From: Ktedonobacter sp. SOSP1-85
GTDB lineage: Bacteria; Chloroflexota; Ktedonobacteria; Ktedonobacterales; Ktedonobacteraceae
DNA: 64,000 bases
Assembly (NCBI RefSeq): GCF_016587415.1
Contig: NZ_BNJI01000003.1
Coordinates: 1,054,001 to 1,118,000 of the forward strand
Direction: 5' to 3'
Shown: positions 10,893 to 34,777 of the stretch, one piece after another
Layout: the number at the start of each line of letters is the position of its first letter
Position numbering within the stretch: position 1 is the first letter of the stretch
Program-made: the position numbers and the translations under genes
The notes under the pieces: model-generated
Told to the model about the DNA's origin: nothing
Database searches by the model: none
What the model saw: the letters and a program-made list of their open reading frames with translations, nothing else

Positions 10893-11007
10893 ACAATGCG
10901 AGAAATCGGTACTATTGGTAGGCGTATTGCTCCAGGCGTAGTATATCGTGGTGCGAACATGGCTAGTCGTCACACTTAAATATAAATATGATCATACCCT
11001 GACTGCC

Positions 11008-13811: not shown

Positions 13812-13904
13812 AAATTCCTCACAAGCTCATCTTCAGATGCCTGGTTCTGCTCTCGCTGACCAGATACTGCCGTAAATTTCTCGCAAGCTCATCTTCAGGT
13901 ACCT
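13801..13904. repeat. Imperfect tandem duplication at the CDF start
   Basis: Two 42-base copies (13801-13842 and 13863-13904) share about 35 positions, including an identical AAGCTCATCTTCAG core, with a 62-base period. The first copy contains the GTG start and ribosome site of the CDF gene. The duplication may supply a second regulatory copy or be a relic of slippage. Confidence 0.7.
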
Positions 13905-14124
13905 AGTGTCACCACAGGTGTGAAAGGGTTCTCGGCCGCCATTGTATCTGATACAGAATAGCTATGTCCATAGAAAGTGCAAAAATATAATTTTTAGTTT
14001 AATAAAAAGAAATTTTCATAATACATGTATTCGTGGGCCAATAGCATCCCAGGCCGTAAAGTATGATATAGTGTCAAAGTATATTGATAAATATCGTTTT
14101 TCTTTTCTAGAAAAGAGGTCCTTC

Positions 14125-16129: not shown

Positions 16130-16390
16130 CTAATCGTTACCAACTAAGCTGGAATCGCCGACCAGTTCACTGAGTGCATGCTGAATATTAGCGATGCTAG
16201 AGAAAGAGGCACGATTGAGAAAGCGAGCGGGAAACTCTACTTCAAATTCATCTTCCAGGGCAAGCATGACATTCACGCTTGCATGAGAAGAGAGCCCGGC
16301 ATCATAGAGATTGGCATCGTCGCTCAGCGTGTCTACATTGATTGGTAAACGCGCATTCTCACGTAAGATAGTTCGAATACGTTCATTCAT
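16130..16390 (-). CDS. Carrier protein (likely amino-acyl carrier)
   Basis: An 86-residue phosphopantetheine-binding protein. The attachment site is most likely Ser35 in DAGLSSHASVNVMLALED, followed by EFEVEFPARFLNRASF. This pattern (GLSSxxSV, LEDEF, FP, LNRxSF) is that of the small carrier proteins charged by amino acid:carrier-protein ligases rather than of fatty-acid ACPs. It is transcribed after its own PPTase gene (16464) and diverges from the ligase operon at 17309-24057. The role is inferred: it would carry an activated small amino acid such as Gly or Ala. Confidence 0.8.
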   Translation of the reverse strand: MNERIRTILRENARLPINVDTLSDDANLYDAGLSSHASVNVMLALEDEFEVEFPARFLNRASFSSIANIQHALSELVGDSSLVGND

Positions 16391-16463
16391 TTTTGTTCTA
16401 AGTCCCTTCTATGAGAGAAGTAAAGAAAGATAAAAACGATATATACACAGGAGCATCCAACGT

Positions 16464-16865
16464 TTAGCTGGATACAAGATCGGCAATCACGATAGCTGTA
16501 GCATATTCTATTTCATGGCTCATACTGAGAGAAAGAGCATAAATTCCCCGTTGCTCCGCCAGTTCAGCAGCTGTACTATGAAGAACAATATCGCAGGCTC
16601 CATCTGGGGCGCGCCTGACTTCGATCTCACGCCAATCGCCCCAAAAAGGTTCAGGACGCAGGATCTTCACCGTTGCCTCCTTTGCCGCGAAGCGCACGGC
16701 AAAGCTCTGAGCAACCGCTTGAGAACTGGTATGGCTGCAACAATAGGCCTGTTCTTCCTCAGTAAAGAGACGGTTTAGGTAGATTTTGCCAAAGCGCTCA
16801 ATAGATTCTTGGATATGTTTTACAAGTACGAGATCTATACCTACCCGATATGGTGATGCTTGCAT
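16464..16865 (-). CDS. AcpS-type 4'-phosphopantetheinyl transferase
   Basis: A 133-residue AcpS homologue: RVGIDLVLVKHI near the N-terminus (Mg-binding Asp), NRLFTEEEQAYC, RFAAKEATVKIL (active-site Glu/Lys) and LSLSMSHEIEYATAIVI at the end. It is distinct in sequence from the AcpS-like protein of the polyketide cluster (1382). It is the first gene of a two-gene transcript with the carrier protein 73 bases downstream. It should therefore activate that carrier. A perfect -35/-10 promoter lies about 50 bases upstream. Confidence 0.85.
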   Translation of the reverse strand: MQASPYRVGIDLVLVKHIQESIERFGKIYLNRLFTEEEQAYCCSHTSSQAVAQSFAVRFAAKEATVKILRPEPFWGDWREIEVRRAPDGACDIVLHSTAAELAEQRGIYALSLSMSHEIEYATAIVIADLVSS

Positions 16866-16913
16866 ATATTTGCTATTTTTCGATCGCTATGACGACTTCT
16901 TTGAATATTGCCC

Positions 16914-16943
16914 ATTATAAAAGTCTTCAATTGTACATGTCAA
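16914..16943 (-). promoter_or_regulatory. Consensus promoter of the PPTase-carrier protein operon
   Basis: On the minus strand: TTGACA (16938-16943), 18-base spacer, TATAAT (16914-16919). Both hexamers are perfect sigma-70-type consensus. The predicted start near 16907 leaves a leader of about 42 bases before ATG 16865. Confidence 0.75.
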
Positions 16944-17059
16944 TCTTTTCTCTTTTCTAGAGATCGAATATACCGGGTGGGACCAAATGGTAAAAGGACA
17001 TGGCCTTGCTATAGTGGTACAGTGCAGCCTCTGAAGCCCTTGCTGGCGATTTTTCTCTG

Positions 17060-17088
17060 TTGACGAAACAGATGGGCTATATTATAGT
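17060..17088 (+). promoter_or_regulatory. Promoter of the amino-acyl carrier operon
   Basis: TTGACG (17060-17065), 17-base spacer, TATAGT (17083-17088). It faces away from the PPTase promoter 117 bases to the left, so the two operons are divergently expressed from one region. The leader to ATG 17309 would be about 214 bases. The rest of the 16866-17308 gap is A/T-rich and shows no gene. Confidence 0.6.
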
Positions 17089-17308
17089 GTGATAGATAAA
17101 GTACGACATATGTCTTACGGCATTGGTATCCATGAGTCTCAGAAACAGTGCACAGCTACAGGGTCCCTTGAGGGGCTACATGTTGATAAATAAAAATTCC
17201 TATTCTAGATCTATACATCCCATTTTATTCTGTTCTTTGCGTTTACTCAAACTACAATACCTATATCTTTATGCTTCCTAAGCACAGCAAAGGAGACTTA
17301 TCTCTTTA

Positions 17309-18508
17309 ATGGAAACTATTCATTCTGTTGCCGAGGTTATTTCAAATCGAGATGACCTGATCCAAAAAGTACGCCATATCGGCAAAACAATCGCCCAACC
17401 GGCAGCGACCAGTGTGGACAGCGAGGCGCGTTTCCCTCACGAAGCTATAGACGCGCTACGCCAGGCACGTCTCCTCTCGCTCTATATTCCTCGCCAATAT
17501 GGCGGTGACGAATGTAGTTTTAGCGACTTGATTGCAATCGCCCAAACCCTCTCGCAATACTGTGCCTCAACGGCGATGATCTGGGCCATGCATCAGATCC
17601 AAGTAGCCTGCCTGGTCCACCATGAACAAAACTCCCCCTTCTTTCAGCAGTATCTACGCGAGATCGCCGAGCACCAACTCCTCCTGGCATCAGCCACCTC
17701 CGAGGCAGGCGTGGGCGGGGATATTCGCAGCAGTGTTGCCGCGGTCGAGCAAGATGGAGAAGGCTGCCGTCTCTTCAAAAAAGCCACCACAGTCTCCTAT
17801 GGCTCATATGCGGATGGCTACCTGGTAACGGCCCGCCGCTCACCTGAAGCGGCTCCTGGCGACCAGGTATTTGTGCTGCTCACCCGCCCCACGACCCAGC
17901 TAGAGCAGACAGGTACCTGGAACACCTTTGGCATGCGTGGCACCTGTAGCCCGGGCTTCAACATCACCTCTACCTTCCCCGCGGAACAGGTTTTGAGCAC
18001 CTCTTTCGCGGATATCGCTCCCCTAACGATGGTCCCCTTCTCGCACCTGCTGTGGGCCGCCTGTTGGCAAGGCATCGCCATTGATGCCTTTTCGCGCGCA
18101 CGTAAGTTTATGCAAGCCAAGGCTCGCCAACTCAGGACTACCTCCCTTCCAGGTGATGGCCGACTGGTCGAGGCCAATAGCAACCTGCAATTGATGCGTG
18201 CAACGCTCGCCACTGCGGTGCAGGAATACGAAGACATCCTGCGCGATCCCGAGCAAGCGGCAGAAAAAGCCTCCGACATGGGCTATAGCATTCGGCAGAA
18301 TAACGTCAAAACTCTTGCCTCACAACTTGTGGTACAGGTAGCGCAGCAAGCTCTTTACATTTGCGGCATGGCTGGCTATAAAGAAGATTCTCCCTTTAGC
18401 ATCGGGCGCCACTTGCGCGATGCCTACTCCGCCAGCCTTATGATCAGCAATGATCGCCTCAATACCACCAATGCCGCGTTACTACTCGTTCATAAAGAAG
18501 AAGCATAG
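17309..18508 (+). CDS. Acyl-CoA dehydrogenase-like flavoprotein
   Basis: A 399-residue member of the acyl-CoA dehydrogenase superfamily. The helical N-domain holds LYIPRQYGG and the substrate-side segment SQYCASTAMIWAMHQ. The beta-domain has SATSEAGVGG, where flavin-binding residues lie in the family. The C-terminal helical domain ends RDAYSASLMISNDRLN. The usual catalytic Glu of chain-shortening dehydrogenases is not obvious, so an oxidase or other reaction on a carrier-bound substrate is possible. It is the first gene of the operon with the amino acid:carrier-protein ligase, 17 bases upstream of it. I infer that it oxidises an aminoacyl or derived thioester on the carrier protein; the substrate is unknown. 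Confidence 0.8.
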   Translation: METIHSVAEVISNRDDLIQKVRHIGKTIAQPAATSVDSEARFPHEAIDALRQARLLSLYIPRQYGGDECSFSDLIAIAQTLSQYCASTAMIWAMHQIQVACLVHHEQNSPFFQQYLREIAEHQLLLASATSEAGVGGDIRSSVAAVEQDGEGCRLFKKATTVSYGSYADGYLVTARRSPEAAPGDQVFVLLTRPTTQLEQTGTWNTFGMRGTCSPGFNITSTFPAEQVLSTSFADIAPLTMVPFSHLLWAACWQGIAIDAFSRARKFMQAKARQLRTTSLPGDGRLVEANSNLQLMRATLATAVQEYEDILRDPEQAAEKASDMGYSIRQNNVKTLASQLVVQVAQQALYICGMAGYKEDSPFSIGRHLRDAYSASLMISNDRLNTTNAALLLVHKEEA

Positions 18509-18525
18509 AAAGTAGATAGAAGAAG

Positions 18526-19443
18526 ATGGCGCAAGAGTTTTCAGCCCACGAAAGTCCTTTTCTTGACCAGTTAATTGCCCATGGTCTGCTTATTCCTTCT
18601 GGCGTGCAGGGCATCTATGGCAAAAGCGGCATGATGGAGAATGTTATCTGCCGTATCGATGAGCTACTGACCGATATCGGGCGCGAGATGGGCGCGGATA
18701 TTATGCGCTTCCCACCCGTTATGAACCGGGCAACCGTTGAACAGACGGGCTACATGAAGTCTTTCCCTCAGTTGCTGGGTTCGGTTCACTCCTTCACTGG
18801 CAAGCATCGCGAGCATCAACAGTTGCTGAACGCGATGGAAGAGGGCCAGGACTGGAGCCAATCTCTCCCCTCAACGCAGGATGTCTTGATTCCAGCCGCC
18901 TGCTATCCCGTCTATCCTACCCTCACAGGCACGCTTCCAGAAGATGGACGCCTGGTTGACGTCTGCTGCTTCTGCTTCCGCCACGAGCCTTCGCCCGATC
19001 CCGCCCGCATGCAGTCCTTCCGCCAGCACGAGTTCATTCGCATCGCGGACGCCCACACGGTTGAACAGTGGCATGGTGAATGGATTAAACGAGGCGACGC
19101 GTTCCTGCGTTCACTGGGCCTGGAGCCAGTAGTCGCACCCGCCAATGATCCCTTCTTCGGTCCCGGCGGACGCCTGCTCGCAGCCAGCCAGCAGGAGCAA
19201 CAGCTAAAATTCGAGCTGCTCTCACCCATCAATTCAAGCGAGCATCTGACTGCCATCTCCTCCTGCAATTATCACCAGGACCACTTCGCGAGCAAGTTTG
19301 GCATTTATACCGCTAGCGGCGAGATCGCGCATACCTCGTGTATCGGCTTTGGCCTGGAACGCATCGCCCTGGCCCTCTTCCGCCAGCATGGACTGGATAC
19401 CGCTGAATGGCCCGTTGAAGTGCGAAAAAGGTTGGCCGTATGA
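18526..19443 (+). CDS. Amino acid:[carrier protein] ligase (SerRS-like)
   Basis: A 305-residue class II aminoacyl-tRNA-synthetase catalytic core without any tRNA-binding domain. Motif 2 is CFRHEPSPDPARMQSFRQHE (residues near 150-170) and motif 3 is CIGFGLERIAL. Cys in AACYP and SSCNYH, with a Glu between, fit the zinc site of atypical SerRS and of amino acid:carrier-protein ligases. These enzymes, known from Bradyrhizobium and Agrobacterium, adenylate a small amino acid and load it on the phosphopantetheine arm of a small carrier protein. The carrier at 16130 is the likely partner. The stop overlaps the next start (ATGA), showing translational coupling. Specificity for Gly or Ala is inferred from the family, not visible here. 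Confidence 0.85.
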   Translation: MAQEFSAHESPFLDQLIAHGLLIPSGVQGIYGKSGMMENVICRIDELLTDIGREMGADIMRFPPVMNRATVEQTGYMKSFPQLLGSVHSFTGKHREHQQLLNAMEEGQDWSQSLPSTQDVLIPAACYPVYPTLTGTLPEDGRLVDVCCFCFRHEPSPDPARMQSFRQHEFIRIADAHTVEQWHGEWIKRGDAFLRSLGLEPVVAPANDPFFGPGGRLLAASQQEQQLKFELLSPINSSEHLTAISSCNYHQDHFASKFGIYTASGEIAHTSCIGFGLERIALALFRQHGLDTAEWPVEVRKRLAV

Positions 19444-20414
19444 AACATCTTGTAACGAGTATCGATGTTAAGAGCTATACACCGCACTGGCTCCATAGCA
19501 GCACCAATCACTGGCCACAGTCCAACTGCTATGTAGATCTATGGATTGAAATTTTGCATACCCTGCATGTCAATCCCCTGGCCTGCTTCGCCTTTACGCT
19601 CTCCATCGATTTTGAGGGAGATCAGTGGACATTTTTCAAGTTTCCCATTCATGATCTCTTCTTGCTCTACGGCATCGATGTCCAGGAATTGAATATCTGG
19701 AACGCGCTTTTGCCGCAGATTTGTGAGCAGACAGGTCGGGATCGCCTAACGCTTGTGGAGGTCGATGCCTTCTATCTGCCAGATGTGAGCGATACAAATT
19801 ATCATCGCATGCATGAGAAGACCACGATTGGCATCCAGTCGATTGATCCCGAGGCACGTGAACTTCATTACTTCCACAACAGCGGCTATTATAGCCTGCA
19901 AGGCGAGGATTTCGACGGCATCTTCCATCCAGATGCGCAGGCGGGCAGAACGGCGGTTCTCCCTCCCTACGTCGAGTTTGCCAAATTTGATCGTTTACAG
20001 CGCCACGCGGATCAAGAATTGTCTACGTTAGCGCTTGAACTATTACGCGGCTATAGTCGACGCATCCCATCAGCCAATCCCTTCACGACCTATAGCCAGC
20101 ACTTCCAGGCGCACCTGGCGGCGCTCCCTGACCTGCAAGCCTATCACCAATATGCCTTTGCGACCCTGCGACAGTATGGCGCCTGTTATGCCTATGCCAG
20201 TCTCTTCCTTCAATGGCTGGCAGACTACCAGGGCGCCCATTTCAAAGAGGCCGCAGCACACCTGGAGGCTATCTCCAGCGGCACCCAGGTCTTCCTGCTG
20301 CGGGCCGCGCGCGTGGTCAGAAACAAGAAGCCCCTGGACCATCTCCCCTACTTTGAGGAGATGGCGATGCACTGGGATCAAGCCATGCAGCATATTCTCG
20401 CCAACCTGACATAG
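19440..20414 (+). CDS. DUF1839 protein
   Basis: A 324-residue protein of the DUF1839 family. Typical segments are NCYVDLWIEILHTL, FTLSIDFEGDQWTFFK, LYGIDVQELNIWNALL and VEVDAFYLPD. The family occurs next to amino acid:carrier-protein ligases in several bacteria. Conserved Cys32, His and Asp in NCYVD, KTTIGI and LHYFHN blocks recall papain-like or transferase folds, so acyl transfer from the carrier is conceivable; no activity is established. It overlaps the ligase by four bases and precedes the GH2 gene by 18. No signal peptide or membrane segment is seen. Confidence 0.8.
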   Translation: MKHLVTSIDVKSYTPHWLHSSTNHWPQSNCYVDLWIEILHTLHVNPLACFAFTLSIDFEGDQWTFFKFPIHDLFLLYGIDVQELNIWNALLPQICEQTGRDRLTLVEVDAFYLPDVSDTNYHRMHEKTTIGIQSIDPEARELHYFHNSGYYSLQGEDFDGIFHPDAQAGRTAVLPPYVEFAKFDRLQRHADQELSTLALELLRGYSRRIPSANPFTTYSQHFQAHLAALPDLQAYHQYAFATLRQYGACYAYASLFLQWLADYQGAHFKEAAAHLEAISSGTQVFLLRAARVVRNKKPLDHLPYFEEMAMHWDQAMQHILANLT

Positions 20415-20432
20415 GAAGAAAGAGACAAGGCT

Positions 20433-22952
20433 ATGCATCCCACTTATCAGGCGTCTACGCATCGGCAGATCTCGCTGCACGATGGCTGGGAACTCATCTC
20501 AGTTGCTCCGGGCAGCTATCAAAACCCGGAGCAACTGGCATCAGAGACCGCGCGCTGGCTTGCGGCCTCTGTACCTGGCACGGTCATGCAGACTCTACAA
20601 CGCCATCAGCCCTGGGACTTCAACGCACCTCCGAACGCCGACGAGCATGACTGGTGGTATCACTGCACCTTCGCGGCACCCACCAGAATGGAGGGAAAAC
20701 ACTACACCCTCGCGTTCGAAGGTCTGGCGACGGTCGCAGATGTCTGGCTGAATGGCAAACTCATACTCCAGGCCGAGAACATGTTCCGAGCCTATGAGGT
20801 GGACGTGACGCCGCTCCTCACTGAGCGAAACGAACTCTATCTCCATTTTCACGCCCTCACGGCTCTGCTGGCGCAAAAACGCCCACGTCCACGCTGGCGC
20901 ACTAATCTGGTTGAGCAACAGCAACTGCGCTGGTTTCGCACGACGCTGCTAGGCAAAATTCCTGGCTGGTCGCCTCCCATCCAGGCGGTTGGTCCCTGGC
21001 AACCAATCTCCCTGGTGGAGCGCTCGACCCTCGCCATAGAACACCTGCACATCCGCCCGAAGGTACAAGAGAATACGGGTGTCGTGAGCCTGGATCTCCA
21101 GGCCAGGAGCCTGGATGGAGGCGTGCCAAACCATGCCACGCTATGTGTTGGCGAGACCACTGTTGCCTTACAGGTGCAAACCAATACGCCAGTCACCTTT
21201 GCCCTTACCGGCGAGGCCCGGCTCAATGATGTCGCGCTATGGTGGCCACATACCCATGGGCAGCAACCACGCTATCCCGCCACCATTCAGCTTTATTATC
21301 CAGATACCGTGGCGGAGATAGGTTGTGGTTTGCTGGCCTTCCGCACACTTGAGCTCTGCACTGAACAAGAAGACTTCAGCCTCCGCGTCAATGGAGAAGC
21401 CATCTTTTGTCGCGGTGCCTGCTGGACGCCTCTCAACATTGTGACCCTCACAGCCTCTCCACAGGAGTACCGCGAGGCACTTCTGAGCGCTAAAAATGCT
21501 GGCATGAACATGATCCGCGTCGGTGGCACGATGGTCTATGAGGATGAGACCTTCTACACCCTCTGCGACGAGCTGGGCATCCTGGTCTGGCAGGATTTTA
21601 TGTTCGCCAATATGGAGTATCCAGTCACGCAGGAGAATTTCCTCGCCAACGTGCAGGCTGAGTGCGAGCAGATGCTACAACGCCTGCAACGGCATGCATC
21701 ACTCGCACTCTTGTGTGGCAATAGCGAGATCGCGCAACAGGTGGCGATGCTGGGCCTACCCGAGGAGCGCTGGAGCAACGCCTTCTTCGAGCAGCTCCTG
21801 CCAGAACTCTGCCAGAGCTACACAGACGTCCCCTACTTGTCATCGACACCCCATGGTGGCGCGCTCCCGTTTCAGGTCAATGCGGGGACCTCAAACTATC
21901 AAGGCGTAGGGGCCTATCTGCGACCGCTGGAGGATGCGCGCCAGAGTGGAGTACGCTTTGTCACCGAGTGCCTCTCCTTCGCCAATATCCCTGAAGATCA
22001 GACGCTTGACCTGTTCTTGAAACCCAATCAGTCGCCCGTCCATCATCCCAGGTGGAAGGCGCGTGTGCCACGCGACAACGGCCCCGGCTGGGACTTCGAC
22101 GATATCCGCGACTACTACCTGGAGAAGCTCTTCCGCGTTGAGCCTATGAAACTGCGCTACGCGGACATGCAGCGCTACCTAGCGCTGGGGCGCGTCACCA
22201 CGGGCGAAGTCATGGCCTCCGTCTTCGCTGAATGGAGGCGCCAGCACTCCTCCTGTCAGGGGGGGCTAATCTGGTTCTATCGCGACCTCTGGCCAGGAGC
22301 AGGCTGGGGCGTGATAGACTCCACGGGCTATCCCAAGGCACCCTACTACTACCTGCGTCGCGTGCTGGCTCCCACTACCTGTTTCTTCACGGACGAGGGC
22401 TTGAGTGGGCTGAGTCTACACCTTGTCAACGACACTGAGCATAGCATCCCTGCCATGGTACAGCTCACACGCTATCGCCTGCCAGGCACGCTACTGGAGG
22501 CAGCAAACGCTGAAATCCTGCTGCCCGCACGCGGTGCGCAAGAACTGCACACTGAGAAGCTCTTTGGACATTTCCTGGACCTGACCTACGCCTTCCGCTT
22601 TGGTCCACCGGGACAGGACCTCGTGGTTGCTACCCTAAGCGCCCAGGAGACAGGCCAGGTACTTGGAGAAGCCTTCTACTTCCCCCAGGGCCTGCCCAAC
22701 ACCCGCGAGCACTCTGTTGGCCTACAAGCCCACGCCCACCCCCTGGAAGATGGCTCTTACGAACTGCACATAAAGGCCGAACAATTCGCCCAGGCAGTCG
22801 CGATACGAGCGAACCAGTACCTACCAGAAGACAACTACTTCCACATGCGTCCCGGAAGCGAGAAAATAGTCCGGCTGGTACCGATGGGAAAAAAGTCATC
22901 CCTATGGGGGTCGCTCTCAGTGCTTAACAGTCTGAATGATATAAATATTTAA
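20433..22952 (+). CDS. GH2 family glycosidase, beta-mannosidase-like
   Basis: An 839-residue protein with the GH2 layout: N-terminal sugar-binding sandwich (about 15-190, with VPGTVMQTL), immunoglobulin-like domain (about 200-310), TIM barrel (about 320-600) and C-terminal sandwiches. The acid/base Glu432 lies in CGNSEIAQQ and the nucleophile Glu512 in FVTECLSF, matching the two catalytic Glu of beta-mannosidases. No signal peptide, so action is probably cytosolic. It is the fourth gene of the amino-acyl carrier operon, which is odd for a glycosidase. It may act on a glycosylated product or, by reverse reaction, build one. The precise sugar is uncertain because GH2 includes galactosidases, glucuronidases and mannosidases. 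Confidence 0.85.
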   Translation: MHPTYQASTHRQISLHDGWELISVAPGSYQNPEQLASETARWLAASVPGTVMQTLQRHQPWDFNAPPNADEHDWWYHCTFAAPTRMEGKHYTLAFEGLATVADVWLNGKLILQAENMFRAYEVDVTPLLTERNELYLHFHALTALLAQKRPRPRWRTNLVEQQQLRWFRTTLLGKIPGWSPPIQAVGPWQPISLVERSTLAIEHLHIRPKVQENTGVVSLDLQARSLDGGVPNHATLCVGETTVALQVQTNTPVTFALTGEARLNDVALWWPHTHGQQPRYPATIQLYYPDTVAEIGCGLLAFRTLELCTEQEDFSLRVNGEAIFCRGACWTPLNIVTLTASPQEYREALLSAKNAGMNMIRVGGTMVYEDETFYTLCDELGILVWQDFMFANMEYPVTQENFLANVQAECEQMLQRLQRHASLALLCGNSEIAQQVAMLGLPEERWSNAFFEQLLPELCQSYTDVPYLSSTPHGGALPFQVNAGTSNYQGVGAYLRPLEDARQSGVRFVTECLSFANIPEDQTLDLFLKPNQSPVHHPRWKARVPRDNGPGWDFDDIRDYYLEKLFRVEPMKLRYADMQRYLALGRVTTGEVMASVFAEWRRQHSSCQGGLIWFYRDLWPGAGWGVIDSTGYPKAPYYYLRRVLAPTTCFFTDEGLSGLSLHLVNDTEHSIPAMVQLTRYRLPGTLLEAANAEILLPARGAQELHTEKLFGHFLDLTYAFRFGPPGQDLVVATLSAQETGQVLGEAFYFPQGLPNTREHSVGLQAHAHPLEDGSYELHIKAEQFAQAVAIRANQYLPEDNYFHMRPGSEKIVRLVPMGKKSSLWGSLSVLNSLNDINI

Positions 22953-23211
22953 AGGGCAATATAACCAAATGCTCTTTTTTCTCAGTGGATAGAAAAGGAG
23001 GCAATTAAAACACATTTCACTTTAGTTGCGCCGTTAATCTTTATTATATACCTACTCCATGGTTATACATTAAATGTAATCGTGATTGATTCAACACGCG
23101 AGTAACCCGAATTGATCATGAATAATGAACGCTCTACCTATGGTTCTTAAACAGAAGAGATAAAGATGCTTTTAGCATCACATTTTGCTCCCGAGAGAAG
23201 GGATAAACGCT

Positions 23212-24057
23212 ATGTTAGAAACTATTCAGCCAGTTGAAAAAAAGACCGCAGCACCTACACGCACGATTCAAGTGGGAAAATCCAAACGCCCCTTTTTCTT
23301 TTTGCATGGCGCCTGGACAGGAGGAACGCCGCTCTATTGCTTTACGCTTGCTCGTACGCTAGGGCGAGATCAACCCTTCTACGGACTCGATCCATACAAT
23401 GTTGATGGTTTAGATGTACCAGCGACCTTGGAAGACATGGCAGCGGCACATATTCAAGCTATGCGTGCAATACAGCCAGAGGGTCCCTATCAGTTGGGCG
23501 GTTTCTGTAGCGGGGCATTTCTCTCTTATGAAATGGCTCGCCAACTCAAAGAGCAAGGGCAAGAAATAAACTTTTTACTACTTGTAGCACCATCTAATAT
23601 TACTGACTCACTTAGAAGGAAACGTAACATTTTTAATGCCCTGGGAAACCTATTTCATATCAACCGAAAGCAACAATTAAGCTTATTTCTGCGCCTCCGG
23701 CATGCATTGAGGCATATATATAGAAAAATTCTTCCACCTGAAGATGGAAGAATTGAGGGCTTTTCTACACTGCTCACACTGGAACCAAGGTTAAATATGA
23801 TGTTTCCACCCATGGAAGCTCTCTATAAAGATTTTCCTGGTCTTTTTCCCTGGCTTGCTGCTGATTATAAACCGCACTTTTTGCCAGAAAATGTTACATT
23901 TATCTGGGCTGGTGATGATCTTGGGGCAAAACCGATCTGGGGTTCAATTGAGCAGAAGGAAAACTCCGCCGTTATTCCTGGACCTTATATGGGACTTATA
24001 GACGAGCACCTGCATTTGTTAGCCGAACAGTTAAAGGTGAGCCTGAATAGAGTATAA
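23212..24057 (+). CDS. Thioesterase / alpha-beta hydrolase with Cys nucleophile
   Basis: A 281-residue thioesterase of the polyketide/NRPS type. FFFLHGAWTGG forms the oxyanion region, and the nucleophile elbow is GGFCSGAF, so Cys99 stands where Ser is usual. Asp in IWAGDD and His in DEHLHLL complete a triad. It probably releases or transfers an acyl or peptidyl group from the carrier protein. ATG 23212 with AGAAGGG upstream is preferred over a TTG 27 bases earlier. A 232-base A/T-rich gap separates it from the GH2 gene, so it may have its own promoter. It is convergent with the GH39-like gene at 24198. Confidence 0.83.
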   Translation: MLETIQPVEKKTAAPTRTIQVGKSKRPFFFLHGAWTGGTPLYCFTLARTLGRDQPFYGLDPYNVDGLDVPATLEDMAAAHIQAMRAIQPEGPYQLGGFCSGAFLSYEMARQLKEQGQEINFLLLVAPSNITDSLRRKRNIFNALGNLFHINRKQQLSLFLRLRHALRHIYRKILPPEDGRIEGFSTLLTLEPRLNMMFPPMEALYKDFPGLFPWLAADYKPHFLPENVTFIWAGDDLGAKPIWGSIEQKENSAVIPGPYMGLIDEHLHLLAEQLKVSLNRV

Positions 24058-24197: not shown

Positions 24198-25790
24198 TCA
24201 ACCCGCATAACTAACTACCTTTACCTGGTAAGGAGTAAGAAGCACGCTCTGACCGTTAACATCCACCGTAACAGAAACCTTCGTTTTATTGACCAACATC
24301 AATTTTTTATCAGAGGCTAAAGCTTCAACTTGGTCAGGTGCTGATACTGTCGTGCTATAAATCTTTGTGCCAGGTGCAAAATCGCTCTTGAGGCTGCTGG
24401 CACTATAGTACCAGGGTTCAGGTTGCGCGCTACCTGCATAGCTAGTGGTCCAGAGTCCCTTATCTGACCAGCCATCGCCCGATTCTCCCCAGGCAAGGGC
24501 CACCGCACCTCCAGCTTTTAAAAACTCGATCATCGTATAGGACTTCAATGCATTGTCATAAGCCGCATTTAGCACATCATTACGAGGATAAGAGAACCAC
24601 TCTGCGAACCAGACAGGGAGCGTGGTAGAGCCTGAATAGACGGCGGGATCTAGAGAATGTATCCATTTCACGACATCTGCAAATTTTTCAGACGCGACAA
24701 AAGGGTTTGCGGCAAGGTTACCGGTAGATCTCTCTTCCCGATTTTCAATCGAGCTATCTACGGTAATAAAGCCAGCACCTACTTTGTGTTGTAACCAGTA
24801 CTCTATGACATCGAAAGGACGTTGATCGAACGTACCATACGGCTTAATGAGATTTGAAGGATTGCTTGGTTGCTTCGCAGACCACACATCCATAAATACA
24901 TAAGGGCCTCCAATTTTTACACTATCGGTTGATATGCCTTGTGTCTGCGCTACCTTCATAATTGTGCTGTAGACCTGATTATACATGTAGGTATAACCAT
25001 GATTAGCATGTACTCCATTGGGATTACCCGGACTCGTTGTGAAATCGTAATTATTGATACCTGGATTGTAGTACCCCTTTAACTCATTCCAGACTTGAAA
25101 ATAGCGGACATTATAAGGCGGAGCCATGTAGCGTTCCGCTGTTCGTTGAACAAGATGCAGCCAGGCATCCATTTTATTATCCAGAATACGCGTTTCATAA
25201 GCAGCAGAAGACCATTCCTGTGCGGAGGTAAGCGTCCGGGCTTTGCCACCAGACAGTGGACTTCCCTTCATCCACCAGGGAGCCTCGTCTAATGAAAGAA
25301 CAGGAGTGCTTCCAGTATCTACCGCCAGTTGCACCCGGCTATCCAGGGCAGACCAGTTCGTTGGATCAGGGCTAGCGGGGTCAGGCCAGGGATCTGGTAG
25401 GCCCCAGCCCATAATGTGTGTATTTTGATATGATACCGACGTTCTGAGCAAAGACCTTACATCATTGCTAGAGTCAGAACCTTTACTCTCCGGGGGAAGG
25501 ACCGCCTCATTATTGACATGGGTCACACCGAGAGCAAACTGGCTCGTCGCGGAACAAGATTTATCGACTAAAACATGTATCTTGCCGTCATTTGTCGTGC
25601 TAGCATCTTTGCCCTTACAACGAGAAAGCTCATCCGGAGTACTCGTTGGAGATGGCTTTACCTGTCCAGTGACACTGTTCTTCACATGTGTAGGGCTGTA
25701 ATTATCGGGATTAGCGCAAGATGACAGACTAATCACAAGGAGTGCAAGGCACAACCAAAAATAAGTAGAACGTTTCTCCCATTCACTCAT
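24198..25790 (-). CDS. Exported lipoprotein, GH39-like glycosidase
   Basis: A 530-residue protein from ATG 25790 (AAGGTGAG upstream); a GTG three codons earlier is less likely. A signal peptide with lipobox VISLSSC ends near residue 25, then a Ser/Thr/Pro linker. The main domain is a (beta/alpha)8 glycosidase resembling GH39 (beta-xylosidase/iduronidase type). The acid/base Glu is in QVWNELKGYYNP and the probable nucleophile Glu in VWFAEWF. It is a paralogue of the gene at 38172-39635; the two bracket the polysaccharide genes. It probably trims or remodels the extracellular polysaccharide. The substrate sugar is unknown. Confidence 0.78.
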   Translation of the reverse strand: MSEWEKRSTYFWLCLALLVISLSSCANPDNYSPTHVKNSVTGQVKPSPTSTPDELSRCKGKDASTTNDGKIHVLVDKSCSATSQFALGVTHVNNEAVLPPESKGSDSSNDVRSLLRTSVSYQNTHIMGWGLPDPWPDPASPDPTNWSALDSRVQLAVDTGSTPVLSLDEAPWWMKGSPLSGGKARTLTSAQEWSSAAYETRILDNKMDAWLHLVQRTAERYMAPPYNVRYFQVWNELKGYYNPGINNYDFTTSPGNPNGVHANHGYTYMYNQVYSTIMKVAQTQGISTDSVKIGGPYVFMDVWSAKQPSNPSNLIKPYGTFDQRPFDVIEYWLQHKVGAGFITVDSSIENREERSTGNLAANPFVASEKFADVVKWIHSLDPAVYSGSTTLPVWFAEWFSYPRNDVLNAAYDNALKSYTMIEFLKAGGAVALAWGESGDGWSDKGLWTTSYAGSAQPEPWYYSASSLKSDFAPGTKIYSTTVSAPDQVEALASDKKLMLVNKTKVSVTVDVNGQSVLLTPYQVKVVSYAG

Positions 25791-26562
25791 GAAACTCACC
25801 TTCGGAAAGTTTTGTGGTCGCGTCTTTAGCTAAAAATGTTGGAGAGACACATTGGCTAACTATCTCCTGCCCAATTTACTCAAGAAGAAAGACCTTACAA
25901 CCAGACGCACTCATAATAACGGGAGGGAGAAGAGCTTTGTAACAAAACGTCCATAAAGTACATATGTTATAGGACTATTAATCCACCACTCTCTTTCGTC
26001 CCAAAAGACTACTTTGATCTTATAAACTTGATATAGCACCTACCCGCTAGTCAGTACAAAAGTACACCTCTATTGAGCAACTTTCTCTCTAGCCATCAAA
26101 CATACAAAAATACCAGGCTTGACAGACTAAGTTGTAGTGAATATACTCGGCCATAAACGCGAAAGAATAGCCATATTTTCTTTAAACTAGGGATAATTTA
26201 TACAATAAGCCCTTTATTCAATATAATATTGTAGAGGCATGTAAAGAGGAATATGCCTATGCATTTTTGCTTGTTCTATCTTAAAACTTTGTTTTATTCT
26301 CGAGAATCCTTATTTACATCTCGTTCTCTTCAAAAAAAAGAAATATTCCAGCCATATTTTCCCTACATTTACCATGTTTACGCCTATAGTAAGCAAAAAT
26401 CCATTACACTATCACACCATTTGACTTGATCACCCAAACTTATGATTATATTTCCGGTAAAGGGGGCACAAATAACCTGACTAGCACTTATGGCAAGAAT
26501 ACCATAGCTTTTCGCTTCTATAGTAGTAAGGCTTCTCCCTTTAGCGTTTAAAATACAGAAAG
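25791..26562. other. A/T-rich divergent intergenic region
   Basis: About 770 bases between the GH39-like lipoprotein (minus) and the first glycosyltransferase (plus). No gene was recognised. It contains the predicted plus-strand promoter at 26119-26147. Downstream of that is a leader of more than 400 bases, long enough for regulatory structure, though I saw no known riboswitch. Confidence 0.6.
26119..26147 (+). promoter_or_regulatory. Promoter of the polysaccharide operon
   Basis: TTGACA (26119-26124), 17-base spacer, TATACT (26142-26147). The -35 is consensus and the -10 has one mismatch. The next gene begins at 26563, leaving an untranslated leader of about 410 bases. Confidence 0.55.
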
Positions 26563-27357
26563 ATGTCGATTGTATACATGTCAAAGCAAGAAAAATATCC
26601 CAGCATCAGTGTTGTTATTCCAGCGCGCAATGAGGCACAAAATCTTCAGCATATTTTGCCTAAGTTGCCCGAAATCGTCACTGAAGTTATCCTCGTCGAC
26701 GGCCACTCAACGGATGATACAAGCAAAATTGCACAACAGCTATTGCCAGACATACACGTCATTCAACAGGAAGGAAGAGGCAAAGGCGACGCAATGAGAG
26801 TAGGCTTTGCTGCTTGTACAGGTGATGTTATTGTTATGCTAGATGCCGATGGATCTGCTAATCCAGCAGAAATTGTACGCTTTGCCGAAGCGCTTATGGC
26901 TGGCTATGATTTTGCAAAAGGTTCGCGTTTCATCAAAGGGGGAGGCAGCCAGGATATTACTTTACTGCGTAGCATTGGCAATTATGTTCTGTGCCAGCTA
27001 GCTAACCTACTATTCTGGCAACACTTCAGTGATCTCTGCTATGGTTATAACGCTTTTTGGCGTCACTGTCTTGACCGGATTGACATCGACTGCGATGGTT
27101 TTGAGATAGAGTCACAACTTTGCCTACGTATACACAAAGCTCACTATAAAATTATTGAAGTTCCTAGCGTAGAGCATAGACGTATCTATGGAGAAAGCAA
27201 TCTGCGCACATTCCGCGATGGATGGCGAGTCCTCAAAACAATTTTAAAAGAGCGCTCCAACACTCTCACTCAGACAGCACATTCCGCAGCACAAGGAAAT
27301 TTATATATGCAAAAACAACGTTCTATCAAAACAGTGGAGAATCCAAGCGTACAATAA
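26563..27357 (+). CDS. GT2 family glycosyltransferase (polyprenyl-phosphate type)
   Basis: A 264-residue GT-A fold glycosyltransferase. VVIPARNEAQNL is the nucleotide-sugar strand, ILVDGHSTDDT and MLDADGSANP give the Asp motifs, and EIESQLCLRI with HRRIYGESNL fits the dolichol-phosphate mannosyl/glucosyl transferase group. No transmembrane helices follow the catalytic domain. It probably makes a polyprenyl-phosphate sugar donor or starts the repeat unit. It is first in the row of polysaccharide genes. A second in-frame ATG at 26578 is an alternative start. Neither has a strong ribosome site. Confidence 0.85.
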   Translation: MSIVYMSKQEKYPSISVVIPARNEAQNLQHILPKLPEIVTEVILVDGHSTDDTSKIAQQLLPDIHVIQQEGRGKGDAMRVGFAACTGDVIVMLDADGSANPAEIVRFAEALMAGYDFAKGSRFIKGGGSQDITLLRSIGNYVLCQLANLLFWQHFSDLCYGYNAFWRHCLDRIDIDCDGFEIESQLCLRIHKAHYKIIEVPSVEHRRIYGESNLRTFRDGWRVLKTILKERSNTLTQTAHSAAQGNLYMQKQRSIKTVENPSVQ

Positions 27358-27427
27358 AACTCCAATGCTGGGTCCCCCCTAAATTAAAATACTTAGTATC
27401 TCAATAGATGACAAATTGGTGAAAGCT

Positions 27428-28792
27428 ATGCTATTACAGGCATATTATGAAGAAAATGTTGTTGAGCAAGCTCCAGATCTCATGCCAATGCGTATTGTCG
27501 AGATCGAGCTGGAGCAAGCCCTCCCGAATATCTCCGCTGTTGATCCCAAGACCCAACGTCGCTATCAACGCGTACTGGCCGTCGTGCGCCTGCACACCCA
27601 GCCCCTGGGCCTTGTCGAACTGCCCCTCTCCATAGAGGAGCTCACTCCTGCTACCTATGCTCCCTTGCTTTGGAATGCCCTGAGCCACCAGATCAACGAG
27701 CATTGCCAGCAAGACGGGTTGCCAGAGCTGAGTGAACTATCACTTCAGGGGCTGACCTCAGCTACGCCTCCTCGCTGTCTCGCCGAACGTGAAGCCTTTC
27801 TGGTCAGTCCCGATCTGCCCCTGGTCAGCGTGATTATCCCAACCCATGATCGCCCCGAGACCCTTGCCTCCTGTCTGGAGGGCGTATTGGCTCAGCACTA
27901 TCCACGCTTTGAAGTCCTTGTAGTCGACAATAAGCCCAGTACCGATGCAACACAACGACTCCTGACACAGATCTCAGGCACCCATCCACAGGTGCGCTAT
28001 CTGCGCGAAGAGGGTCCTGGCATTGGTAATGCCGCCAATTGTGGCATTGCAGCAGCCCAGGGCGAAATCCTGGCCTTTACCGATGACGATGTGGTGCTTG
28101 ATCCCTACTGGCTTGTCGAGCTTGTACGCGGCTTTCGCCAGGCAGAGAAGGTGGCCTGCGTCACCGGCCTGGTCCTCCCCCTTGAGCTGGAGCAACCCGC
28201 ACAGTTCTGGTTTGAGCAGTATGCTGGCTTCACCAAGGGCTTCCAACGCCGCCTCTTCGACATGAAGGAGCATCATCCACGCATGCCCTTACATCCCTAT
28301 ATGGCCGGTCGCTTCGGCACAGGGGCCAGTATGGCCTTTACTGCCTCCTTCCTCAAGAGCATTGGTGGCTTTGATCCTGTCCTGGGTGGCATAGATAAGG
28401 TAAAAGCAGGGTTAGACATTGCAGCATTTTTCGAAGTAATGATGCATGGCTATCGCCTGGTTTATGAACCTCGCTCCTTGCTCTACCACCTGCATCGCCG
28501 TGATTATTCCGGCTTGCGTAGGCAGCTTTATAATTATAGCGTAGGTTTTACATCTCACTTGACCAGATGCATCTGGGAGCGCCCGCACCTCCTTCTTAGT
28601 CTTCTGCCTCAACTGATTTACGGTTTCCTTTTTGCCTTCTTCAATCGCTCGATAAAAAATCGTTTGCAGCAAAGTAGTTATCCGAAAGAGTTGAAGCAGC
28701 TTGAATTCAAAGGTATGCTCTTTGGGCCTCTGGCTTATCTGCAAAGCCGAAGAGTGGCACGTAAAACCCTACCAAAAACTCAATTTAGCTAA
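27428..28792 (+). CDS. GT2 glycosyltransferase, tandem copy 1
   Basis: About 454 residues from ATG 27428. An N-terminal domain of about 120 residues (RIVEIELEQALPNI, QRRYQRVLAVVRLHTQPLG) of unknown role is followed by a GT-A domain. The latter has VIIPTHDRPETL, FTDDDVVLDPYW with the DxD-type metal site, and FGTGASMAFT. The usual ARN motif after strand 2 reads IGNAANCGI. It is the first of three tandem paralogues (27428, 28899, 30348). The DNA of its middle part is nearly identical to copy 2, but its C-terminus (NRLQQSSYPKELKQLE) is closer to copy 3. It likely adds one sugar of the polysaccharide repeat. Confidence 0.85.
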   Translation: MLLQAYYEENVVEQAPDLMPMRIVEIELEQALPNISAVDPKTQRRYQRVLAVVRLHTQPLGLVELPLSIEELTPATYAPLLWNALSHQINEHCQQDGLPELSELSLQGLTSATPPRCLAEREAFLVSPDLPLVSVIIPTHDRPETLASCLEGVLAQHYPRFEVLVVDNKPSTDATQRLLTQISGTHPQVRYLREEGPGIGNAANCGIAAAQGEILAFTDDDVVLDPYWLVELVRGFRQAEKVACVTGLVLPLELEQPAQFWFEQYAGFTKGFQRRLFDMKEHHPRMPLHPYMAGRFGTGASMAFTASFLKSIGGFDPVLGGIDKVKAGLDIAAFFEVMMHGYRLVYEPRSLLYHLHRRDYSGLRRQLYNYSVGFTSHLTRCIWERPHLLLSLLPQLIYGFLFAFFNRSIKNRLQQSSYPKELKQLEFKGMLFGPLAYLQSRRVARKTLPKTQFS

Positions 28793-28898
28793 TCAAAATG
28801 ATAGGAGTATTGTATAAAAAGCAACTCGTTATCGTTTAAATTCATAATTGGTCTTGGACAAGTGGATAATCACTACTAATGGATAAGGGTAAGAATAT

Positions 28899-30281
28899 AT
28901 GTTGTTGCTGACACGTCAGAAAGATGCCTCTAGAGAACATGAGAACACCTCTCTTGAGCAAACTCCAGATCTCATGCCCATGCGTATTGTCGAGATTGAG
29001 CTGGAGCAAGCCCTCCCGAACATCTCCGCCGTTGATCCCAAGACCCAACGTCGCTATCAACGCGTACTGGCCGTCGTGCGCCTGCACACCCAGCCCCTGG
29101 GCCTTGTCGAACTGCCCCTCTCCACAGAAGAGCTCACTCCTGCTACCTATGCTCCTTTGCTCTGGAATGCCCTGAGCAGTGAGATCAATGAACATCTTCA
29201 GCAAGATGGGTTGCCAGAGCTGAGTGAACTATCACTTCAGGGGCTGACCTCAGCTACGCCTCCTCGCTGTCTCGCCGAACGTGAAGCCTTTCTGGTCAGT
29301 CCCGATCTGCCCCTGGTCAGCGTGATTATCCCAACCCATGATCGCCCCGAGACCCTTGCCTCCTGTCTGGAGGGCGTATTGGCTCAGCACTATCCACGCT
29401 TTGAAGTCCTTGTAGTCGACAATAAGCCCAGTACCGATGCAACACAACGACTCCTGACACAGATCTCAGGCACCCATCCACAGGTGCGCTATCTGCGCGA
29501 AGAGGGTCCTGGCATTGGTAATGCCGCCAATTGTGGCATTGCAGCAGCCCAGGGCGAAATCCTGGCCTTTACCGATGACGATGTGGTGCTTGATCCCTAC
29601 TGGCTTGTCGAGCTTGTACGCGGCTTTCGCCAGGCAGAGAAGGTGGCCTGCGTCACCGGCCTGGTCCTCCCCCTTGAGCTGGAGCAGCCCGCACAGTTCT
29701 GGTTTGAGCAGTATGCTGGCTTCACCAAGGGCTTCCAACGCCGCCTCTTCGATATGAAGGAGCATCATCCAAAAACACGGTTGCACCCTTACACGGCTGG
29801 CCAATTTGGCACAGGGGCCAGCATGGCCTTTACTGCCTCCTTCCTCAAGAGCATTGGTGGCTTTGATCCCGCCCTGGGTGGCATAGGTCCGGTAAAAGCG
29901 GGATTAGATATATCGGCATTTTTCGAAGTAATGATGCATGGCTATCGCCTGGTTTATGAACCTCGCGCCTTGCTTTACCACCTGCATCGTCGCGATTATT
30001 CTGGCTTGCACAAACAACTTCATAACTATGGCATGGGCCTTACTGCTTACCTGACCAAGTGTGTCTGGGAGCGCCCGCATCTGCTCTTTGATCTGCTTCC
30101 AAAACTAGCGTATGGTATTTTTTTCACTTTGAGTAATCGCTCTGCAAAGAATCATAAGAGGCAGGATAACTATCCCAAAGCATTAAAACAAGCGGAATTA
30201 AAAGGCATGCTCTTTGGGCCTTTGGCCTACCTACAAAGTCGGAGAGTGGTACGTAAAGTTCTGCGGAAAAACACACTCTAG
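28899..30281 (+). CDS. GT2 glycosyltransferase, tandem copy 2
   Basis: A 460-residue paralogue of the preceding gene. Start ATG 28899 has AAGGG upstream, and the leader AAGGGTAAGAATAT is shared with copy 3. From about 28990 to 29755 the DNA is almost identical to copy 1, including the atypical IGNAANCGI segment and the DDDVVLDPYW metal site. Downstream, the segment HPKTRLHPYTAGQFGTG and the C-terminus (NHKRQDNYPKALKQAE) diverge from both other copies. The divergent patches may alter acceptor recognition. Function in polysaccharide assembly is inferred from family and context. Confidence 0.85.
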   Translation: MLLLTRQKDASREHENTSLEQTPDLMPMRIVEIELEQALPNISAVDPKTQRRYQRVLAVVRLHTQPLGLVELPLSTEELTPATYAPLLWNALSSEINEHLQQDGLPELSELSLQGLTSATPPRCLAEREAFLVSPDLPLVSVIIPTHDRPETLASCLEGVLAQHYPRFEVLVVDNKPSTDATQRLLTQISGTHPQVRYLREEGPGIGNAANCGIAAAQGEILAFTDDDVVLDPYWLVELVRGFRQAEKVACVTGLVLPLELEQPAQFWFEQYAGFTKGFQRRLFDMKEHHPKTRLHPYTAGQFGTGASMAFTASFLKSIGGFDPALGGIGPVKAGLDISAFFEVMMHGYRLVYEPRALLYHLHRRDYSGLHKQLHNYGMGLTAYLTKCVWERPHLLFDLLPKLAYGIFFTLSNRSAKNHKRQDNYPKALKQAELKGMLFGPLAYLQSRRVVRKVLRKNTL

Positions 30282-30347
30282 TGAAAACTTATATTTGATC
30301 TTAAACAAATTGGATGCATTATCACTGATACACAAGGGTAAGAATAT

Positions 30348-31724
30348 ATGTTGTTGCTAACACGTCAGAAAGATGTCTTTAGAGAACATGAGAACACCTC
30401 TCTTGAGCAGGCTCCAGATCTCATGCCAATGCGTATTGCCAAGATCGAGCTGGAGCAAGCCCTCCCGAATATCTCCGCTGTTGATCCCAAGACCCAACGT
30501 CGCTATCAACGCGTACTGGCCGTCGTACGCCTGCACACCCAGCCCCTGGGCCTTGTCGAACTGCCCCTCTCCATAGAGGAGCTCGCTCCTGCTACCTATG
30601 CTCCCTTGCTTTGGAATGCCCTGAGCCACCAGATCAATGAGCATTGCCAACAAGACGGGTTGCCAGAGCTAAGCAAACTACCACTTCAGGGGCTGACCTC
30701 AGCTACGCCTCCTCGCTGTCTCGCCGAACGTGAAGCCTTTCTGGCCAGTTCCGATCTGCCCCTGATCAGCGTGATTATCCCAACCCATGATCGCCCCGAG
30801 ACCCTTGCCTCCTGTCTGGAGGGCGTATTAGCTCAGCATTATCCACGCTTTGAGGTTATTATTGTTGATAACGCTCCAAGTACAAATGCGACAGAACAGT
30901 TTCTCACTCAAACCTATGGCACACATTCCCAGGTGCGCTATCTGCGCGAAGAGCGTCCTGGCGCTAGCTGGGCGCGTAATTGTGGCATTGCGGCAGCCCA
31001 GGGCGAAATCCTGGCCTTTACCGATGACGATGTGGTGCTTGATCCCTACTGGCTTGTCGAGCTCGTACGTGGCTTTCGCCAGGCAGAGAAAGTGGCCTGC
31101 GTCACCGGCCTGGTCCTCCCCCTTGAGCTGGAGCAGCCCGCACAGTTCTGGTTTGAGCAGTATGCTGGCTTTGCTAAGGGCTTTCAACGTCGCATCTTCG
31201 ATATGGCTGAGCATCACCCACATATGCCACTGCATCCTTATATTGCTGGCCGCTTTGGCACGGGTGCTAGCATGGCATTTACGGCTTCCTTCCTCCGCAG
31301 CATTAATGGTTTCGATCCCGCTCTAGGCGGTCTCGGTCCATCCAAAAATGGACAGGATATCTCAGTTTTTTTCGAAGTAATGATGCATGGCTATCGCCTG
31401 GTTTATGAACCTCGTGCCTTGCTCTACCACCTGCACCGCCGTGATTATTCTGGCTTGCGCAGGCAGCTTTATGGCTATAGCGTAGGATTTACGGCTCACC
31501 TGACCAAATGCATCTGGGATCGCCCACTCCTTCTTTTTGATCTCTTGCCTCAACTAGTTTCCAGTTTTTTCTTCGCCTTTCTCAATCGCTCAGCAAGAAA
31601 TCGTTTGCAACAAAACAGTTATCCGAAAGAGTTGAAACAACTTGAATTAAAAGGTATGCTTTTTGGACCCCTGGCCTACTGGCAGAGTCGTAGGATAACA
31701 GGCAAAACCTGGAAGAAGGCATAG
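30348..31724 (+). CDS. GT2 glycosyltransferase, tandem copy 3
   Basis: A 458-residue paralogue. The N-terminal 150 residues are nearly the same as in copies 1 and 2. The stretch from about 170 to 215 is different: VIIVDNAPSTNATEQFLTQ and RPGASWARNCGI, which restores the usual GT2 ARN motif. The metal site FTDDDVVLDPYW is unchanged. The C-terminus resembles copy 1 (NRLQQNSYPKELKQLE). ATG 30348 has the same ribosome site as copy 2. It ends four bases before the next glycosyltransferase gene. Confidence 0.85.
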   Translation: MLLLTRQKDVFREHENTSLEQAPDLMPMRIAKIELEQALPNISAVDPKTQRRYQRVLAVVRLHTQPLGLVELPLSIEELAPATYAPLLWNALSHQINEHCQQDGLPELSKLPLQGLTSATPPRCLAEREAFLASSDLPLISVIIPTHDRPETLASCLEGVLAQHYPRFEVIIVDNAPSTNATEQFLTQTYGTHSQVRYLREERPGASWARNCGIAAAQGEILAFTDDDVVLDPYWLVELVRGFRQAEKVACVTGLVLPLELEQPAQFWFEQYAGFAKGFQRRIFDMAEHHPHMPLHPYIAGRFGTGASMAFTASFLRSINGFDPALGGLGPSKNGQDISVFFEVMMHGYRLVYEPRALLYHLHRRDYSGLRRQLYGYSVGFTAHLTKCIWDRPLLLFDLLPQLVSSFFFAFLNRSARNRLQQNSYPKELKQLELKGMLFGPLAYWQSRRITGKTWKKA

Positions 31725-31728
31725 CATC

Positions 31729-32751: not shown

Positions 32752-32921
32752 TACTTACTGTGTATGCAATATCCCCTACCCCTGGTTTATGCTTATATAT
32801 GGATTTATAAAAGTAATTCAAAGCCAGAATAGCCGCCTATAGAAGAAATCTGGGCGCGAGAATGCTCACCACAACAGTGGTGTTAAATTTCGCCGAAGAA
32901 TAAGTCGTTGCGGGAGTTTCG

Positions 32922-34772: not shown

Positions 34773-34777
34773 GAACA

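Follow-up and report, generated by a model that had tools for sequence, protein, structure and literature searches.

A conserved amino acid:carrier-protein ligase cassette in Ktedonobacter and its candidate bond-forming enzyme

Gene content and conservation of the cassette

The window, a stretch of 64,000 nucleotides from the soil bacterium Ktedonobacter sp. SOSP1-85 (contig NZ_BNJI01000003.1, positions 1,054,001 to 1,118,000), contains at 16130-24057 a cassette of seven genes that includes a small acyl carrier protein (ACP) and an amino acid:[carrier protein] ligase derived from seryl-tRNA synthetase (SerRS). The ACP gene and a gene for a phosphopantetheinyl transferase (PPTase) lie on the minus strand; the plus strand encodes a flavoprotein of the acyl-CoA dehydrogenase fold (ACAD), the ligase, a DUF1839 protein, a GH2 glycosidase and a thioesterase-like alpha/beta hydrolase (TE) (Table 1). 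A sequence-only reading had proposed this gene set; all seven open reading frames (ORFs) were found where it placed them, and ORF calls and profile matches bore out the families it named. The active-site cysteine that it numbered Cys99 in the thioesterase is likewise present, being Cys99 when counted from the ATG at 23212 and Cys108 from the TTG start. The divergent promoters, described as consensus-like, match the consensus hexamers at 12/12 positions on the minus strand and 10/12 on the plus strand; these are consensus matches only, and both promoters are predictions. The source genome holds four PF01648 matches in total, and the ligases of K. racemifer and K. robiniae are 98% identical to that of the window, placing the source genome close to both.

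Table 1. Features of the cassette and of the associated genes in the window
Feature	Coordinates	Strand	Match or remark
Carrier protein (ACP), 86 aa, phosphopantetheine Ser35	16130..16390	-	PF00550 and NF005480 (101.7 bits, cut-off 72)
AcpS-type PPTase	16464..16865	-	PF01648
Sigma-70-like promoter, PPTase-ACP	16914..16943	-	TTGACA-18-TATAAT, 12/12, perfect hexamers; consensus match only
Sigma-70-like promoter, plus-strand operon	17060..17088	+	TTGACG-17-TATAGT, 10/12; consensus match only
ACAD-fold flavoprotein without dehydrogenase glutamate	17309..18508	+	PF02771/PF00441
Amino acid:[carrier protein] ligase, SerRS-derived	18526..19443	+	NF005479; PDB 3mey/4h2w
DUF1839, proposed papain-like aminoacyl transferase (Cys30, Thr128, His146)	19440..20414	+	PF08893 (329 bits)
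GH2, predicted cytosolic, beta-mannosidase-like, Ser431-Glu432 / Glu512	20433..22952	+	PDB BtMan2A family, E 1e-63
PF00975 thioesterase-like alpha/beta hydrolase (TE), Cys108 elbow	23185..24057	+	PF00975 (63.3 bits, cut-off 26.4)
Lipoprotein-like protein, 533 aa, probably extracellular	24198..25799	-	No family match; associated, not core
Polysaccharide module	26563..37992	+	GT2 at 26563, 27416, 28899, 30348 and 31729; associated, not core
Polysaccharide module, other members	32922 (flippase-like), 34778 (10 transmembrane segments), 36700 (4 transmembrane segments)	+	Associated, not core

Conservation was surveyed in plasmid records and 400 Chloroflexota genomes; a contig scan with one protein gave just two near-identical Ktedonobacter loci. 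The seven genes occur in the same order and orientation in the window, K. racemifer, K. robiniae and two further Ktedonobacteraceae genomes (G002 and G011). In G009, from another genus of the family, the ACAD-ligase-DUF1839-GH2-TE block stands at one site, and the PPTase-ACP pair lies with a second TE 1.36 Mb away; the PPTase travels with the carrier protein, the pair being intact although split from the rest. An artefact or chance grouping was rejected, as five further Ktedonobacteraceae genomes share the gene set. Canonical fatty-acid metabolism and a type II polyketide synthase (PKS) or nonribosomal peptide synthetase cluster were also rejected as readings of the cassette. DUF1839 is present in 6 of the 400 Chloroflexota genomes, each of which also has the ligase (6/6), and another Chloroflexota genome (G175) carries ACP-ACAD-ligase at the end of a contig. 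A DUF1839 search of viral contigs gave no match.

All 16 proteobacterial plasmid DUF1839 loci examined, from Azospirillum, Rhizobium, Phyllobacterium, Shinella, Methylobacterium, Burkholderia, Caballeronia, Cupriavidus and Mycetohabitans, hold ACP, ACAD, ligase, DUF1839 and GH2 together; one of them is decaying (R. leguminosarum L020, with a split ACAD and a truncated GH2 adjoining an IS element). Fifty plasmid records encode GH2 homologues at least 38% identical to the window protein, and DUF1839 is present in all 50, no more than 1.5 kb away in 49. The next-best plasmid GH2s are at most 30% identical, and DUF1839 occurs in none of their records. GH2 is thus strictly tied to DUF1839. The description of the seven genes as a closed set fits this evidence for the co-occurring core genes and for GH2. 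It does not extend to the PF00975 thioesterase, which is conserved within the Ktedonobacteraceae only and falls outside the pan-phylum core; in Proteobacteria, a different alpha/beta hydrolase fills this role or is located elsewhere.

Individual loci show local irregularities. In G002, where the cassette is intact otherwise, the ligase is split by a frameshift beside a run of C (L040, about 10290-10310), reflecting a sequencing error or a recent loss, and the GH2 frame of K. robiniae is broken at residue 770 (L010, 14214-14220), the remaining cassette being intact. The TE of K. racemifer (L009, 14521-15417) is 48% identical to that of the window, compared with 93-100% for the other cassette proteins, and was either replaced or is evolving fast. 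On the Rhizobium gallicum plasmid pRgalR602b (L054, 128-13434), the cassette lies in the symbiosis region, between nifKENX-fdxB, which it follows directly, and an ACC deaminase gene.

Gene neighborhoods of this kind were described in 2010, when a note added in proof linked a SerRS-like ligase to an ACP, a redox enzyme, a highly conserved uncharacterized protein and a glycosidase (Biol Direct 2010;5:48; PMC2922099). The prediction made there was that the conserved ORF, Atu2574, ligates an amino acid, probably monooxygenated, to an amino group on a sugar of the cell surface (PMC2922099). The window cassette has the same companions of the ligase (ACP, redox enzyme, conserved ORF and glycosidase), Atu2574 being assumed to correspond to DUF1839. 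The cassette is a real, conserved pathway of the kind described in 2010; this Chloroflexota member brings its own PPTase and has a Cys-elbow protein of the PF00975 type. What becomes of the amino acid that these ligases load is a question that dates from then, and a 2022 review still called their biological role unknown (PMC9437257). The conserved ORF was not assigned a fold in the 2010 note, which did not cover Chloroflexota (PMC2922099); our analysis adds a candidate papain/CcbD-like fold and mechanism for DUF1839, residue data, co-occurrence counts, a linkage to polysaccharide genes and arguments on which type of oxidation takes place and on what substrate the glycosidase acts. Hosts of the cassette include nitrogen-fixing rhizobia, Azospirillum, Burkholderia-type bacteria and Ktedonobacter.

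Predicted loading and oxidation of the carrier-bound residue

The window ligase matches NF005479 ('amino acid--[acyl-carrier-protein] ligase') with 431.8 bits, above the cut-off of 357. At 305 aa, it lacks the tRNA-binding N-terminal domain and aligns just to the C-terminal core of type-2 SerRS; the closest chains in the PDB come from the biochemically studied Bradyrhizobium Bll0957 (3mey/4h2w). The zinc ligands C126/E169/C272 and residues R152, E154 and R279, which include the class II motif arginines, are invariant in 20 homologues, and the ligase is thus probably active. Ser35 of the carrier protein is invariant in 21 homologues. The Bradyrhizobium enzyme prefers glycine, within a glycine/alanine specificity.

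The Bradyrhizobium and Agrobacterium ligase systems (Mocibob et al. 2010, 2013; 3mey, 4h2w; NF005479) share with the window the ligase family, the zinc ligands and a vicinal small carrier, and in Bradyrhizobium an ACAD gene, bll0958, likewise adjoins the ligase gene bll0957 (PMC10888616). Both genes are raised in a phaR mutant under microaerobic conditions (PMC10888616), indicating that the ligase-ACAD system is expressed in Bradyrhizobium. The window system differs in its Chloroflexota host, in its own AcpS-type PPTase, in the divergent transcription of the carrier-PPTase pair and in the PF00975 Cys-elbow protein, which replaces a tandem alpha/beta hydrolase.

The flavoprotein has the domains of the ACAD fold, with PF02771 and PF00441 scoring above and PF02770 below the respective cut-offs. 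At the C-terminal base position, that of the catalytic glutamate of medium-chain acyl-CoA dehydrogenase (Glu376), all 21 homologues (21/21) have Ile or Val, within the motif RDxxSxxLMISNDR. The presumed base position of isovaleryl-CoA dehydrogenase is not Glu either, being occupied by a Ser/Thr-type residue beside the invariant His246. Matches to PDB profiles include nitrososynthases, DszC and a prolyl-ACP dehydrogenase. Because the dehydrogenase glutamate is missing, and because glycine, if this is the residue loaded, has no beta carbon and could not undergo alpha,beta-desaturation, oxidation at N or at C-alpha (hydroxylation or imine formation) is more likely than desaturation. The missing glutamate and the likely identity of DUF1839 as a papain-like transferase are the two most telling points of the locus, and the sequence-only reading had missed both.

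DUF1839, the glycosidase and the Cys-elbow protein

DUF1839 has been classified as papain-like, with a C(T/S)H triad (PMC10318531). Among 22 DUF1839 proteins, His146 is invariant (22/22), Thr128 is nearly so and Cys30 is present in 20. Cys30 is lost just in the in-operon copies of two Cupriavidus loci, both of which hold a second DUF1839 with the cysteine. The pairs are located at 9925-10905 and 14686-15687 in L029 and at 13726-14709 and 8971-9948 in L053, the in-operon copy reading NRH.

Structure models of DUF1839 were built from six Ktedonobacteraceae rows, and their poor quality is attributable to this small number. With the first model (pLDDT 56), the ten best Foldseek matches were all AziU3, CcbD or CtaG, at probabilities of up to 0.99. 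In the second model, the cysteine would begin a helix, with the threonine and the histidine at the start and the end of neighboring strands, an arrangement resembling the papain fold. CcbD couples carrier-bound proline to an aminooctose in celesticetin biosynthesis through a Cys-His-Glu ping-pong mechanism (PMC12945683), which is the kind of reaction predicted by the 2010 note (PMC2922099). The likeness that we propose to CcbD/LmbD lincosamide synthetase (and to BtrH, AziU3 and CtaG) is the use of a cysteine to move an aminoacyl group from a carrier onto an amino sugar; it draws on the fold matches of the first model and on a catalytic cysteine at a helix start with the other residues on adjacent strands. 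DUF1839 differs from the CcbD-type synthases in having no detectable sequence homology to them and a fold predicted by low-confidence models, and its His and Thr/Ser positions are swapped relative to their Cys-His-Asp/Glu order, as in PMC10318531. The comparison with CcbD is accordingly suggestive, not established; DUF1839 is a proposed papain-like transferase and the likely bond-former. The source genome also encodes a genuine BtrH-type acyltransferase (BtrH_N and DUF4872; G000:C3:932990-933376, L062), which is positionally unrelated to the cassette.

The acid/base and nucleophile of GH2, E432 and E512, are kept in 20/20 correctly framed homologues. It resembles the beta-mannosidase BtMan2A in domain order and in both catalytic glutamates. 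The residue before the acid/base is Ser431, invariant in 17 aligned homologues, at a site where beta-mannosidase reads GNNE. In the exo-beta-D-glucosaminidase CsxA, Ser468 directly precedes Asp469 (PMC6566704), and this shared serine hints at a 2-amino-sugar substrate for GH2. A search of the relatives for exo-glucosaminidase homologues for motif comparison returned two weak matches only. The window enzyme thus combines Ser-Glu, as distinct from Asn-Glu in beta-mannosidase and Ser-Asp in CsxA, and reaches at least 38% identity to cassette GH2s only. It has no signal peptide and is therefore predicted to act in the cytosol.

An intact retaining active site in a GH2 without a signal peptide would also suit a catabolic or quality-control module, in which GH2 and a DUF1839 peptidase or amidase degrade aminoacylated glycosides and the carrier system recovers the group that they release; papain-like enzymes are frequently amidases (PMC10318531). 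We consider this quite improbable. ATP-dependent loading of a carrier follows a biosynthetic logic, a dedicated PPTase and carrier would be wasteful for catabolism, and the cassette has no conserved transporter.

In 6/6 Ktedonobacteraceae relatives, the PF00975 protein carries a Cys elbow but not the Asp; the window and G009 have Tyr in place of the His. A Cys elbow is likewise found in the second (C-terminal) domain of the tandem hydrolase in 7/7 loci (six proteobacterial, one from Tsukamurella). Because both proteins carry this elbow, a Cys-elbow alpha/beta protein is a recurrent companion of the cassette through non-orthologous replacement. The proteobacterial hydrolase fuses domains related to exosortase-A-associated hydrolases 1 and 2 (TIGR03100/TIGR03101), which belong to exopolysaccharide loci; it scores below the curated cut-offs of both and is not part of the Ktedonobacter cassette.

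The recurrence of these elbows, extending to Tsukamurella, which lacks DUF1839, and the loss of Cys30 from one in-operon DUF1839 copy in each of the two Cupriavidus loci could mean that the Cys-elbow protein is the transferase and DUF1839 an auxiliary, for example in carrier-protein presentation. This assignment seems quite unlikely to us, given that the hydrolase is missing from or far from several cassettes, that Asp and His are not conserved in TE and that Cupriavidus retains a second DUF1839 with Cys30.

Proposed pathway and linked polysaccharide genes

Taken together, the genes may encode a pathway with a carrier protein of its own, whose product would be an aminoacyl amide on an amino sugar, a reading to which we assign a probability of about 0.5. 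We infer every catalytic step and all substrates; the gene set, its conservation, the residue patterns and the linkage were observed directly. The AcpS-type PPTase would attach phosphopantetheine to Ser35 of the carrier, and the ligase would activate a small amino acid, most likely glycine, and load it. The flavoprotein would then oxidize the carrier-bound residue, more likely at N or C-alpha, and Cys30 of DUF1839 would accept the acyl group and pass it to the amine of an amino sugar in a CcbD-like manner. The cytosolic GH2 may trim a beta-glycoside of the acceptor or product, and the Cys-elbow protein may edit the carrier or catalyze another acyl transfer. The probable acceptor in Ktedonobacteraceae is a precursor of the polysaccharide that the linked GT2 and flippase genes would produce for export.

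The sequence-only reading had already suggested transfer of an aminoacyl group to a sugar. This idea fits the tie between GH2 and DUF1839, the conserved zinc and ATP residues of the ligase and the polysaccharide linkage in several genera, although product, amino acid and acceptor cannot be read from the sequence. It is not new, having been predicted in PMC2922099, and is in effect a rediscovery of that proposal. A more specific form, which we hold tentatively and think rather unlikely, is that the ligase, a nitroso/hydroxylase-type flavoprotein and a papain-like, permuted-triad DUF1839 amide synthase make N-oxidized amides (e.g., N-hydroxyglycyl or glyoxylyl-derived) of an amino sugar on lipid-linked glycans, so that lincosamide-type chemistry would decorate surface polysaccharide in at least two phyla. 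With DUF1839 as the likely bond-former, a probable type of oxidation and a likely class of acceptor, the question of the end product becomes directly testable in vitro.

Polysaccharide genes recur near the cassette. Homologues of two window GT2s are nearby in K. racemifer, and in G011 the region upstream of the cassette has homologues of the flippase-like protein and of two GT2s. In G009, the separated ACP-PPTase-TE locus has homologues of 24198, 26563, 31729, 32922, 34778 and 36700, and a GT2 comes after TE in the main block. In G002, the neighbors of the ACP are a chain-length determinant (Wzz), a polyprenyl sugar transferase and a GT4. As the cassette genomes hold just 15-31 GT2 matches each, such proximity in several genera is unlikely to arise by chance. 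Presence of the 26563 GT2 family is by itself uninformative, this family being ubiquitous. The 34778 protein is present in 6/6 cassette genomes and in 9/55 other relatives (15/61 genomes in all, the relatives not being independent). The polysaccharide module is a linked but not exclusive partner of the cassette.

The first part of the pathway could also serve a different end, in which the residue on the carrier, once oxidized, is joined to an amine or a second amino acid, giving a signal, siderophore-like compound or antibiotic, with the role of GH2 limited to processing a protecting glycoside. In Priestia, PPTase-ACP-ACAD-ligase is accompanied by an ATP-grasp L-amino-acid-ligase-like enzyme, a type II TE, an alanine permease and an alanine racemase, and two of the Foldseek matches of DUF1839, CtaG and AziU3, act on non-sugar acceptors. 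Non-ribosomal peptide synthesis was suggested by Mocibob et al., as reported in PMC2922099. We nevertheless regard such a product as unlikely: GH2 and DUF1839 do not separate, DUF1839 cassettes contain neither a second adenylation gene nor an ATP-grasp gene, and polysaccharide genes are linked in Ktedonobacteraceae and in Tsukamurella, where PPTase-ACP-ligase lies within a polysaccharide cluster.

Several results weigh against an aminoacyl amide on an amino sugar. The Priestia set is without DUF1839 and GH2, so the oxidized aminoacyl group is not always bound for a sugar. Both DUF1839 models are of low confidence (pLDDT 56 and 53), with a best Foldseek E-value of 0.008, and the second recovers CcbD/CtaG from rank 16 down, at E >2. 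A sequence search of PDB chains with DUF1839 gave no match, PF14399 has no match in DUF1839, and hhalign comparisons of DUF1839 with BtrH_N proteins (full and trimmed) were nonsignificant (probability about 1%, E 0.05-0.07); the strand following 'VDxFYL' was in register in this overall nonsignificant alignment. The cassette encodes no flavin reductase or electron transfer flavoprotein partner. Polysaccharide genes are not constant neighbors in Proteobacteria (nif genes adjoin the cassette in R. gallicum, for example), and a cassette-specific polysaccharide module was rejected, as nine genomes with the 34778 protein have no cassette.

The genes flanking the cassette have features of their own. 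The 24198 protein has a single N-terminal hydrophobic segment followed by a lipobox-like Cys, and a WNE motif that recalls clan A glycosidases. Its gene (24198-25799, minus strand) and that at 38172-39635 (plus strand) encode a homologous pair (about 49%) of probably extracellular proteins with no Pfam or NCBIfam match. The GT2 genes 27416, 28899 and 30348 (27416-31724) are three tandem paralogues, and a tandem array is also present in K. robiniae. Near the cassette, at 156-2813, lies a compact type II PKS-like cluster with a ketoacyl synthase (156-1421), a polyketide-cyclase-like protein (2340-2813) and a second small carrier protein (2045-2293) that has its own AcpS-type PPTase (1382-1846).

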